Assembly: GCA_963575745.1 (NCBI GenBank)
Contig: CAUYUJ010009557.1
Coordinates: 170,001-234,000, forward strand
From: Prorocentrum cordatum
Taxonomy: Eukaryota; Sar; Dinophyceae; Prorocentrales; Prorocentraceae
DNA length: 64,000 bases
Direction: 5' to 3'
Below, piece by piece: positions 58,933 through 63,798 of the stretch. The notes beneath the pieces are model-generated. The model was not told the origin of the DNA, did no database searches, and saw only the letters and a list, made by a program, of their open reading frames with translations. The translations under genes and the position numbers were made by a program. Every line of letters begins with the position of its first letter. Positions within the stretch are counted from its first letter, which is position 1.

Positions 58933-58946
58933 GCGAGTTTCCTCGC
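58933..58946 (-). other. Mini-hairpin 1 (GAAA loop)
   Basis: Element strand GCGAG-GAAA-CTCGC, followed by CTT. Non-coding 3' region. Confidence 0.85.
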
Positions 58947-59108
58947 AAAGTATTTCACGCAAATACAAGACAGCCCCTTCAAGCAATGAAGGGCTATCGG
59001 CTCAGTTAGAGGTAAGCCAAACAGGCCATACCTCACCAAGCAAATGTGTATCAAGGCAAAGAGCCTGAGTTGTACGAAGCCGGCTCGTTGCCAGGCGTGA
59101 AATATAAG

Positions 59109-61567: not shown

Positions 61568-63798
61568 TCGTAATAGTGGAAAGCCGGGCTGATGTCGTTG
61601 TCATAGTGGATCAGCGTAGACCCGGTGGCGTACTTTACTGCAGGTAGGCTTGACACACTCTTAGCCAATCGAACTGCTACTACATGTTCTACTCGGAAGT
61701 AATTTCGTACGAGATACTGTAGTGCTAAGTGTACGCGCGGGTGAAACTTGCTGTCGTCTGAAAGATTAAGGTTTCCCTTGTAGTCGGGGATATAGCCGAA
61801 AACTTTGGCAGGTTTCCCTGCGCCGAGGTGTGCCACATGAGCAAGGACGGTTTGCATGGCCAGATTATCCATGCCAAGTTCCCGTGTGAGGAGACATTCG
61901 ATGTATAGTGTGTGACGAGCATCAGGATACATTACAATTACCTCACGAGATCCTGCCTTGACAACAATATGTCCTCTTTCAGGCACATTACGGATCACCG
62001 GGAATGGGCCATTCCAGCCTCCATGGTCGTCCTTGGTGGCAGTAGGTCGGTGGTAATCGACCAAATCCCCTGATGAGTAGAGGCGAGCACCATCAGGAGT
62101 CGTCTTAGCCCTAAGAGCCCGATTTGTCTTGGCCACAGCAGTAGCCTGAGTTATAGCTTCTAGGCTGACTTCCCTTACACGACGTTCTCGTTCGTGTCCT
62201 GAAGTCTCGGGTCCCTTGGGAAAGTCAAGGGTATCGAGATCAGGGAGGAAGGAGGGCTGACGTCCTGTGTGTGCCTGATATGGCGATACTCCGTTATAAA
62301 ACGTAAACGCATTAGTAACGAAGATGCCTTCCGCCAATACTCTGGTGAATACAACAGGGATGTTGTGTCTATTCAATTCTTCCTCAATCATGTGGAGGAC
62401 GCCTCTGAGAATGCCGTTTCGTGACTCAATTGAAGTCGCGTGTTGGCCAGGTGCTCGGATACGAAGTTCCGTGCCCTTATTGGCCATCATGGTTTTAGCG
62501 GCATCGTTATTCAGGGCGCCTTCTCCGTCTGAGTATAAAACTTTGAAGGGTCCATGATAGGCAATCCAGCAGTAGTGGTAGGCGTCAATGATAGTGTCAC
62601 GTTCTCTGTCGGAAATTTCTAGGCCTGCTGCCAGGCGAATACAACGATCCATAATATGGAATATGGTCCGTTTCTTGTAGAACATGAGGTCCATTTCCCC
62701 TTCATCGAGCCAGTTACCAGGAAGGCTCACCGATGGTAGTGTTGAGTTTCCTGGACGTTCCCATGCTCTGCATTCCCGACAGGTATCGCAAACTTCCTTG
62801 ATCATGTTCAGTCGAACGTTATCAAGCCCCACCTTTTCGAGGATTAGCCTCACCTTTGGCTCCTTCGCATGATGCCATCGCAGATGCAGTTTTCGGAGTT
62901 CCTTTTTCACGACATGGGGTTCGTGACTACGGAGACTCTGTAGACTGTGTTGGATGTCGAATCTCGTCCAGTCGGGTAGTCGGGGAGCCCCAGGGCCGGT
63001 GGGGGCAAGAGGGTTCCTTGTAGCTCTCCGTAGTTGGTCCCCTGTGTTGACTGCGTCTGGAGGTGGTGGTGCGCCTTGTAGACGGCCGCGGCGGGCCGCT
63101 ACCTGTGGCGCTTCGCTAGAAGACGCAGAAGGCGTGTTTCCACGCTCGGGGGCGTCTCGTAGCATGTCGTAGCTGCTGGCACCAGATGTCGGATCGACGT
63201 TACCGAAGGATCGTGGTCGTGGTGGCCTGGCGTGTGCGCCTTGGCGGCCACCTGAAGCTGAAGCTTGGCCCTCACCAGGCTTAGGTAAGGGTTTCCACCA
63301 AGCTGGCACGGTTTTGCCTTCGGGGTCGTGGTCGTCTGGGAGTTTGAATGGTTCAGCAAAACGACATTTGCCAGGTTCGGTATCGAGGTGGTTCTTAACA
63401 CCCTTGCTTCTCGTAAGATCCCTCTGACATGCTGGACATGGCCAATATACAGAGATGGAATCATGACGTTTACACTGCGTAGGGTCTCTGTTATGGCTAG
63501 GACTGTCCTTTCGGACGTTGTCGATGCATGCCGGGCAAGTAGCCACCTTTGGGATGATACGATCACCGATGCGTCTCATACCTTCGCCTGGTTCAGCTTG
63601 ATCGGGAAGGTCTGTAGGATAAGCATGTGCGGTACTTATAGGCGCGTTTCCGCGCGTGGTGTCAATGGCTTTCGCCAGATATACGGCTTCCACGAAGGCA
63701 GACTGCAGTCGCCGGGTGTATTTTTGTGCCAGTGTAAGCTCTGTATTGCACGGTTGTGCGTGCACATGCTGACCGTTGCACTTGAGTCGCTCAAAGGG
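61498..63798 (-). CDS. Ty1/copia integrase with N-terminal zinc-ribbon region
   Basis: Open from just after TAA (63,799-63,801) to TGA (61,498-61,500). Numbering from the GTG at 63,765: residues 1-36 end a methyltransferase-like tail (HAQP...TRRLQSAFVEAVYLAKAI). Residues 77-134 have two CPAC pairs plus Cys/His (zinc-ribbon type). A basic/Pro-rich linker follows. Integrase HHCC is LHLRWHH (H293, H298/299) with CDTCREC (C326, C329). DDE residues are D359 (MDLMF), D413 (YSDGEG) and E447 (SIESRN); the D413-to-E447 spacing fits D(35)E integrases. SPYQAHTGRQP at about 498 is the typical copia/retroviral integrase 'P-x-x-x-x-x-G-R' motif. A C-terminal GPFPVI...GSREVIVMYPDA segment follows. The domain order is complete. 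Upstream it is interrupted by a stop codon. Confidence 0.92.
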   Translation of the reverse strand, partial: PFERLKCNGQHVHAQPCNTELTLAQKYTRRLQSAFVEAVYLAKAIDTTRGNAPISTAHAYPTDLPDQAEPGEGMRRIGDRIIPKVATCPACIDNVRKDSPSHNRDPTQCKRHDSISVYWPCPACQRDLTRSKGVKNHLDTEPGKCRFAEPFKLPDDHDPEGKTVPAWWKPLPKPGEGQASASGGRQGAHARPPRPRSFGNVDPTSGASSYDMLRDAPERGNTPSASSSEAPQVAARRGRLQGAPPPPDAVNTGDQLRRATRNPLAPTGPGAPRLPDWTRFDIQHSLQSLRSHEPHVVKKELRKLHLRWHHAKEPKVRLILEKVGLDNVRLNMIKEVCDTCRECRAWERPGNSTLPSVSLPGNWLDEGEMDLMFYKKRTIFHIMDRCIRLAAGLEISDRERDTIIDAYHYCWIAYHGPFKVLYSDGEGALNNDAAKTMMANKGTELRIRAPGQHATSIESRNGILRGVLHMIEEELNRHNIPVVFTRVLAEGIFVTNAFTFYNGVSPYQAHTGRQPSFLPDLDTLDFPKGPETSGHERERRVREVSLEAITQATAVAKTNRALRAKTTPDGARLYSSGDLVDYHRPTATKDDHGGWNGPFPVIRNVPERGHIVVKAGSREVIVMYPDARHTLYIECLLTRELGMDNLAMQTVLAHVAHLGAGKPAKVFGYIPDYKGNLNLSDDSKFHPRVHLALQYLVRNYFRVEHVVAVRLAKSVSSLPAVKYATGSTLIHYDNDISPAFHYYECVGTGLTFLRSLVALIPDLFNA
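61808..61821 (-). other. Mini-hairpin 7 (GAAA loop)
   Basis: Element strand GCAGG-GAAA-CCTGC in the integrase ORF (AGKPA codons). Confidence 0.85.
62623..62636 (-). other. Mini-hairpin 8 (GCAG loop variant)
   Basis: Element strand GCCTG-GCAG-CAGGC, followed by CTA. Loop departs from GNRA. Within integrase codons. Confidence 0.6.
63132..63145 (-). other. Mini-hairpin 9 (GAAA loop)
   Basis: Element strand GCGTG-GAAA-CACGC, followed by CTT. In the linker before the integrase. Confidence 0.85.
63642..63655 (-). other. Mini-hairpin 10 (GAAA loop)
   Basis: Element strand GCGCG-GAAA-CGCGC, followed by CTA. In the codons before the zinc-ribbon region. Confidence 0.85.

Follow-up and report, generated by a model that had tools for sequence, protein, structure and literature searches.

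A Ty1/copia-like element carrying an array of small hairpins

The window analysed here (64,000 nucleotides of the dinoflagellate Prorocentrum cordatum, C9557:170001-234000) contains, on its minus strand, the 3' third of a Ty1/copia-like long terminal repeat (LTR) element that measures 15.9 kb in full (C9557:228554-244466). Its open reading frame (ORF) for the reverse transcriptase (RT) and RNase H part of pol (59192-61567) matches RVT_2 (PF07727, E 9.9e-09, 35.6 bits with a cut-off of 31.6). The preceding ORF (61498-63765) has no Pfam match of its own but aligns to the closest full-length relative, P0095, upstream of the RT part of that protein, so that integrase lies upstream of RT. Matches to rve (989-1077) and RVT_2 (1602-1855) in the distant relative P0106 are both under the curated cut-off. 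The LTR pair of the window copy shares a 272-bp matching stretch with 97.4% identity, and target site duplications of 5 bp are clean (GAATG for the copy on C2), yet the LTR does not have TG...CA termini but ends in ACTTT...CGACT (ACTTTAAGGG...TTTCGACT). Because TG...CA ends are common among Ty1/copia elements but not universal, we still call the element Ty1/copia-like. It belongs to a family with many copies, as 57 RT matches were scored in the genome out of 13,966 loose first-look candidates.

Distributed along the sense strand of the element are 14-mers that fold into hairpins with GC ends, two variable inner pairs, a G-C closing pair and mostly a GNRA tetraloop (Table 1). A first-pass annotation made from the sequence alone had listed ten of them, and all ten are present, with the loops it described (eight GAAA, one GAGA and one GCAG), six stem combinations that are complementary in every case, CT(T/A/C) directly after seven of the hairpins, and eight coding sites spread over all three codon phases besides two non-coding ones. 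The single similar hairpin that it had reported outside the element, CCCTGGAAACAGGG, was located at 38648. Nine of the ten sites combine a GNRA loop with a paired stem, and all ten have stem pair probabilities of at least 0.86 when folded with 60 nucleotides (nt) of flank. The looser pattern GCNNGGNRACNNGC gives 10 matches in the whole window, all inside the element and on its sense strand, with matching inner bases in 9. The remaining match is an imperfect eleventh motif at 59083 (GCCTGGCAACGAGC) that the first-pass annotation had not listed; its variable bases are mismatched in the window copy, and in two related copies (C15 and C26) the site reads GCTTG/CGAGC and is paired with one G-U. Outside the element, GNRA hairpins of at least 5 bp number 9 in ~58.9 kb on both strands, and their stem types differ from those of the element.

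Table 1. Features of the element within the window (window positions; C2, C14766, C20766, C15 and C26 are related copies, B and C are subfamilies)
Feature	Position	Strand	Remarks
Target site duplication TAGTA	58554..58558	-	same 5 bp beside 5' LTR
3' LTR, ~267 bp, starts ACTTTAAGGG, ends TTTCGACT	58559..58825	-	5' LTR outside window near C9557:244195-244466
GCGAG-GAAA-CTCGC	58933..58946	-	3' non-coding; identical in C2, C14766, C20766 and C26; disrupted in C15
Imperfect motif GCCTG-GCAA-CGAGC	59083..59096	-	one C-A mismatch and one G-U in window copy
GCTCG-GAAA-CGAGC	59109..59122	-	3' non-coding; unchanged in 6/6 aligned copies
ORF, RT and RNase H part of pol	59192..61567	-	RVT_2 match
GCGAG-GAAA-CTCGC	59716..59729	-	peptide RGNSP, in RNase H part; subfamilies B and C have a GT/AC stem
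GCGAG-GAAA-CTCGC	60503..60516	-	peptide GEETR, in RT part; xER in nearly all relatives lacking the hairpin
GCTCG-GAGA-CGAGC	61141..61154	-	peptide LGDEP; unchanged in 6/6 aligned copies
GCCTG-GAAA-CAGGC	61402..61415	-	peptide PGNRP; broken in C15, GAGA loop in C26
ORF, linker and integrase part of pol	61498..63765	-	other frame in window copy; aligns to full-length pol P0095
GCAGG-GAAA-CCTGC	61808..61821	-	peptide AGKPA; GG/CC stem in subfamily B
GCCTG-GCAG-CAGGC	62623..62636	-	integrase part, peptide RLAAG; loop not GNRA
GCGTG-GAAA-CACGC	63132..63145	-	peptide RGNTP, HGDVP in P0095; unchanged in 6/6 aligned copies
GCGCG-GAAA-CGCGC	63642..63655	-	peptide RGNAP, RGDTP in P0095; C15 and C26 have loop GAGA

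The hairpins are far more frequent than expected by chance

Enrichment over dinucleotide-shuffled sequence, which the first-pass annotation had proposed as a check, is pronounced: GCNNGGAAACNNGC occurs 8 times in the window, compared with a mean of 0.26 and a maximum of 2 in shuffles (0 of 100 reach 8). Likewise, the element strand at 58840-64000 holds 9 hairpins with a GNRA loop and a perfect stem of at least 5 bp, against a mean of 0.13 and a maximum of 2 in 300 shuffles. Tetraloops of other kinds show no such excess in this stretch (6 hairpins versus 4.86 in shuffles), and among loop sizes 3 and 5-10 only size 6 is slightly raised (8 versus 3.6, a value reached by 4% of shuffles). Template switching that perfects palindromes is rejected as the origin of the hairpins, since other tetraloops are not in excess. 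Since its GCAG loop falls into the class that lacks enrichment, the hairpin at 62623 (integrase residues RLAAG) stands at background level; it is unproven and may be of chance origin. A binding site in double-stranded DNA with dyad symmetry is rejected as well, because the inner pairs vary without losing complementarity and one strand carries an asymmetric loop. A search of positions 58000-64000 against Rfam families gave 4 matches up to E 5, none of them near the gathering score.

Across the genome GCNNGGAAACNNGC is found 38,124 times, compared with 7,419 for the reversed pattern. In a sample made up of the first 100 matches listed, stems are complementary at 47 of 49 places in A-type elements (the type of the six copies compared below) and at 8 of 9 in stretches of types B, C and D, but at only 5 of 42 elsewhere, so that the genomic background raised as a concern in the first-pass annotation is, among these matches, mostly not complementary. 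Separately, an identical 7-bp hairpin, GCGCCTG-GAAA-CAGGCGC, is found near C2:376117 (L056) and C4:493039 (L060); these places have no pol similarity with four relatives and perhaps belong to another repeat. Overlapping the hairpin at 58933, the window copy has an imperfect inverted repeat of 23 nt in its 3' non-coding part (58891-58943).

About 35 hairpins are spread along each of six copies

Counting GC-NN-G-GNRA-C-NN-GC motifs with the sense-strand pattern GCNNGGNRACNNGC gives similar numbers in six copies: 35 motifs (32 of them complementary) on C2, 36 (33) on C14766, 37 (32) on C20766, 36 (31) on C15, 40 (35) on C26 and 37 (33) in the window copy. No antisense motif lies inside these six elements, and the two antisense matches of the fetched stretches are beyond the LTRs. 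Among the 36 stems of the C14766 copy, 33 are Watson-Crick throughout, 2 contain a G-U and 1 has a mismatch, with ten different inner dinucleotides; their loops are GAAA (26), GCAA (6), GAGA (3) and GTAA (1). In 33 of the 36 complementary GNNA motifs of this copy, a C directly follows the hairpin. The frame is thus fixed (GC ends, G-C closing pair and GNRA loop, usually followed by C), while the inner pairs are free but complementary. Five of the 36 sites are non-coding, and 25 of the 31 coding sites share one codon phase, with 3 in each other phase. Along the C14766 copy the motifs are spaced more evenly than expected at random (coefficient of variation 0.69, P 0.012).

Stems are conserved and compensated between copies

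For a comparison between subfamilies, 35 sites of the C2 copy were picked by sequence pattern alone and aligned to C15 and C26, which allowed 68 site comparisons, while 2 further ones fell on gaps. The hairpins differ at 27 of 952 bases (2.8%), against 1743 of 7896 (22.1%) for flanking positions up to 60 bases away. Of 340 stem pairs, 331 are unchanged, 4 carry double changes that are still paired, 2 changed on one side to become Watson-Crick and 3 are broken; the 4 double changes concern 2 sites, each in 2 relatives, and thus probably represent two events. Chance pairs elsewhere in the same alignments show a one-sided change in 29% of cases. A third compensated site, with GNNA loops, lies at alignment column 7102. 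When the window copy is compared with others of the main subfamily, its hairpins have diverged less than the sequence outside them; relative to C20766, for example, its 3' part shows 0 differences in 112 hairpin bases and 180 in the 4539 others. Most site differences between A-type copies are substitutions and a few are gaps.

The comparison of orthologous copies suggested in the first-pass annotation therefore finds the hairpins kept and compensatory stem changes present. Its broader claim of selection at the level of RNA or single-stranded DNA is supported by this compensated conservation together with the mostly non-complementary background in the sampled genome places, and we are close to certain that the hairpins are selected as RNA structure.

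Subfamilies in the same genome use different loops

Two copies of subfamily B (on C2 and C1), with LTRs of 287 and 289 bp, carry 36 and 32 GNNA motifs on the sense strand, of which 34 and 30 are complementary; by the same count the six A-type copies have 33-36 complementary motifs. The loops in subfamily B are GCCA, GTCA, GACA or GGCA in 26 of 34 and 24 of 30 complementary motifs, and GG/CC stems dominate. Two pol sites illustrate how stems covary between subfamilies while the hairpin is kept: at pol nt 3873 the stem changes from AG/CT to GG/CC in subfamily B, and at pol nt 5966 from GA/TC to GT/AC in subfamilies B and C. Alignment of subfamily B to the A-type sites is ungapped at 8 of 10 pol sites, whereas 6 of 6 mapped gag-side sites are gapped, the latter in weak alignments (28-32% identity). 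Near-identical hairpins of subfamily B stand in rows 30 and 24 nt apart, i.e., in whole-codon steps (C2:1702410-1702470, L062, and C2:1707753-1707825, L048), which suggests that the array grows by local duplication.

Traces of the hairpins in protein relatives

Protein searches gave 140 relatives, mostly ENA and JGI entries, that we compared as protein only; the three homologues that carry an organism name come from Polarella and Symbiodinium. A codon-level test asked whether complementary codons can specify the residues on either side of G-N or G-D, which a GNRA hairpin placed in this phase would need. In a first run on all 80 proteins, 70 of 252 G[ND] sites were compatible at the inner pairs versus 43.6 expected. 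Among the 33 closest proteins of this first set, 27 of 85 distinct sites fit inner and outer pairs versus 12.4 expected. Because close and distant relatives were separated only after the first run, a later set of proteins provides the cleaner test, and 44 close proteins found later replicate the excess (20 of 71 versus 10.1; p 0.0008 in 5,000 shuffles and 0.0013 in 20,000), with the signal carried by G-D sites (17 of 41 versus 5.5). Distant relatives show no excess in either the first set (13 of 118 versus 13.9) or the second (6 of 38 versus 4.7). Control motifs are mostly null: G[ST] reached 18 of 66 versus 9.3 in the first close set (p 0.001) and a non-significant 10 of 57 versus 8.5 in the second, for G[AV] the distant relatives gave a nominally significant result (34 of 162 versus 22.8, p 0.008), and G[KR] gave 12 of 51 versus 7.8 in the second close set (p 0.07).

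Single compatible peptides are weak evidence since distant relatives show several each by chance. P0095 has hairpin-compatible peptides at all 8 sites that are coding in the window, some of them exchanged (RGNTP for HGDVP, for example); its RGSSP at 59716 implies a non-GNRA loop, and the site at 62623 is unproven. The RT site reads EETR in the window and EATR in P0095, and nearly all other listed relatives have xER. Among 20 hand-picked aligned proteins, one linker region contains compatible G-N/D/S peptides in 16, with several stem types and a contribution of chance matches. Some relatives repeat a compatible peptide of their own (DPGNRI in P0092, HGNVH/HGDVH in P0086 and HGNVA in P0093), as if the stems within one element changed together.

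Several EukProt transcripts filed under the green alga Pyramimonas sp. (P0123 and others) resemble the element, one being 88% identical across one third of the RT ORF, pointing to either contamination or horizontal transfer. A protein-based search for related DNA in viral and genome contig collections confirmed nothing, and scanning viral contigs with the longer hairpin of a relative gave 31 loci with one match each.

What may read the hairpins

The number of hairpins, their distribution along the entire RNA and a loop class specific to each lineage point to many sites of one reader, and the GNRA rule on the sense strand together with the G-U pairs argues for RNA rather than complementary DNA (cDNA) as the form that is read. 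We infer that Gag encoded by the element itself is the simplest candidate: the copy on C14766 has a Gag-like ORF with an arginine/lysine-rich stretch and a weak CCHC match (PF00098, E 0.0034, under the curated cut-off). The next ORF piece of this copy has a RING domain, and its pol frame measures 2167 amino acids. Weighing all of this, we lean slightly towards viewing the dispersed array of ~35 hairpins as binding sites for the element's own Gag, comparable to packaging signals in RNA viruses. The hairpins would be read by an RNA-binding protein that the element encodes, most probably by the basic and CCHC region of Gag, and Gag would use them to gather its own RNA and pack it into particles. 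Most sites lie where the protein seems tolerant of a short peptide of the G-N-x-P type (linkers and loops), with some in the 3' non-coding region, and the shift of loop class and stem between subfamilies might reflect a reader that changes with its target. Among the three possibilities raised in the first-pass annotation, protein binding fits best, whereas classic docking of GAAA loops into receptors finds little support and a small inserting hairpin is disfavoured by conservation and compensation.

A more tentative extension, possible but clearly less secure, is that the hairpins form a self-recognition code. Each subfamily would mark its own RNA with some 30-36 hairpins of a shared loop class and a favoured stem, so that Gag would package its own RNA and not that of rivals, with the number of sites being kept while single sites turn over. 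The loop classes are GNRA in one subfamily and mostly GNCA with GG/CC stems in another of the same genome.

Several observations weigh against Gag binding or against the RNA-level selection behind it. Neither Pfam nor a PDB sequence search recognised a capsid domain. Among the closest copies (C2, C14766 and C20766), hairpins of the 5' part and the remaining sequence differ at similar rates (for C2 and C14766, 4 of 294 versus 128 of 6817), which is what changes after insertion would produce. Eight of the 10 A-type pol sites are not hairpins of the A form in subfamily B, from which it follows that sites turn over. Even spacing in the window is clear only when the non-GNRA site is included (P 0.005 for ten sites versus 0.10 for nine). 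In the protein relatives, G-N sites alone are not significant in the replication set (9 of 42 versus 6.2, p 0.15), and hairpins in phases 0 and 1 leave no signal. Finally, RNA binding alone does not account for the strong phase bias of 25 in 31 coding sites, which is partly explained at most; in-frame local duplication is one possible cause.

Alternatively, a host RNA-binding protein acting in export, translation, stability or escape from silencing could bind the hairpins without any involvement of Gag. The RNA-level evidence fits such a protein too, and so does the fact that sites span the whole region between the LTRs including its non-coding parts. We nonetheless consider it rather unlikely, because the loop class differs between two subfamilies of one genome, which would take two host readers or one tolerant reader, and because the complementary motif is mostly confined to the elements, as seen among the matches listed.

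Somewhat less probable again is that RNA structure alone is at work, with GNRA loops docking into RNA receptors or hairpins keeping the long RNA compact or locally ordered for reverse transcription. GNRA loops are classic docking motifs, and the high local pair probabilities agree with a structural role. However, only one pair resembling the 11-nt receptor was found in two stretches of C14766, with a shuffle mean of 0.225 (plain base shuffles of the 5' stretch only), and subfamily B mostly uses GNCA loops, which are not known to dock in the manner of GNRA loops. Compaction alone would not retain the GC ends, the closing pair and the following C.

We regard it as improbable that the array arose from a tiny hairpin, mobile or duplicating itself, that colonised the element and has a secondary function or none, even though the phase bias, the peptides repeated within one relative (such as DPGNRI), the 24- and 30-nt steps in subfamily B and the gaps at all mapped gag-side sites in the weak alignments of that subfamily would all suit it. 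Neutral spread does not predict a divergence eightfold lower than in the flanks, nor compensated swaps; most pol sites are ungapped in subfamily B, two of these with a covarying hairpin, and in RT a codon run of the KER type occupies the place of EETR. The repetitive or double hairpin elements of mitochondrial genomes likewise consist of numerous small, dispersed hairpins of a single type. Whereas the title of a paper on them describes invasions (PMC2800124), many positions in the present element are conserved and the stems compensate.

An LTR element passes through single-stranded DNA, and the same stems form in either strand, but a hairpin that functions in single-stranded cDNA instead of RNA appears very improbable given that the loops follow GNRA on the sense strand (GAAA, GCAA, GAGA and GTAA) and that 2 of 36 stems contain G-U, an RNA pair. 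That the xGNxP peptides are protein signals such as protease sites, with palindromes as a by-product, would agree with the phase bias and the many sites in linkers but is hardly credible, because the C14766 array includes non-coding sites and sites in the other two phases, flanking residues covary by codon complementarity as no protease preference predicts, and one site each lies within RT and RNase H.

Relation to known systems

Dispersed packaging signals of viruses usually constitute a loose motif inferred from binding selections and models. Here the array is explicit, with ~35 uniform and covarying hairpins per copy, a high copy number within a single genome and natural subfamilies that differ in their loops, and this clarity makes the packaging idea testable by comparison of subfamilies and simple binding assays. 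If the idea is true, it extends dispersed packaging signals from viruses to LTR retrotransposons.

In a review, such signals are described for MS2, picornaviruses and the hepatitis B pregenome (PMC6281560). The array resembles these cases in that many hairpins with a common loop recognition feature lie along one RNA, and here, too, structure is conserved above sequence. It differs from the signals portrayed there in being more uniform (~35 copies, all with the same GC ends and with inner pairs that covary) and in belonging to an LTR retrotransposon, its binding and assembly roles being predicted ones. The review goes no further than suggesting that Gag-like proteins may assemble similarly (PMC6281560).

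With Ty1/copia elements the present one shares the RVT_2 reverse transcriptase, integrase before RT, the LTRs and the 5-bp target duplication, while the hairpin array, the length of 15.9 kb, Tpt1/KptA and RING domains and LTR ends other than TG...CA set it apart. Additional enzymatic domains recall the dinoflagellate retrotransposons with captured DNA methyltransferases, although those elements, from Symbiodinium, are of LINE and DIRS types (PMC5890265), and neither "hairpin" nor "RNA structure" occurs in the main text of that article. We found no description of such hairpins in a retrotransposon in the open-access literature searched, most subscription papers being outside this scope. The array is a real and strong feature and, within the literature searched, apparently an undescribed one.

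The extra domains were seen in the copy on C14766. Its Gag-like ORF (L045:1456-8211, minus strand) includes a Tpt1/KptA RNA 2'-phosphotransferase domain (PF01885, E 4.3e-21) with a PDB sequence match to 7yw3, and the RING domain lies in the ORF piece L045:2-1600. In the relative P0065, a glycine-rich motif, VDLVELCGGAGRIS, is located at residues ~350-400 in the N-terminal half of pol, which we presume to be methyltransferase-like.

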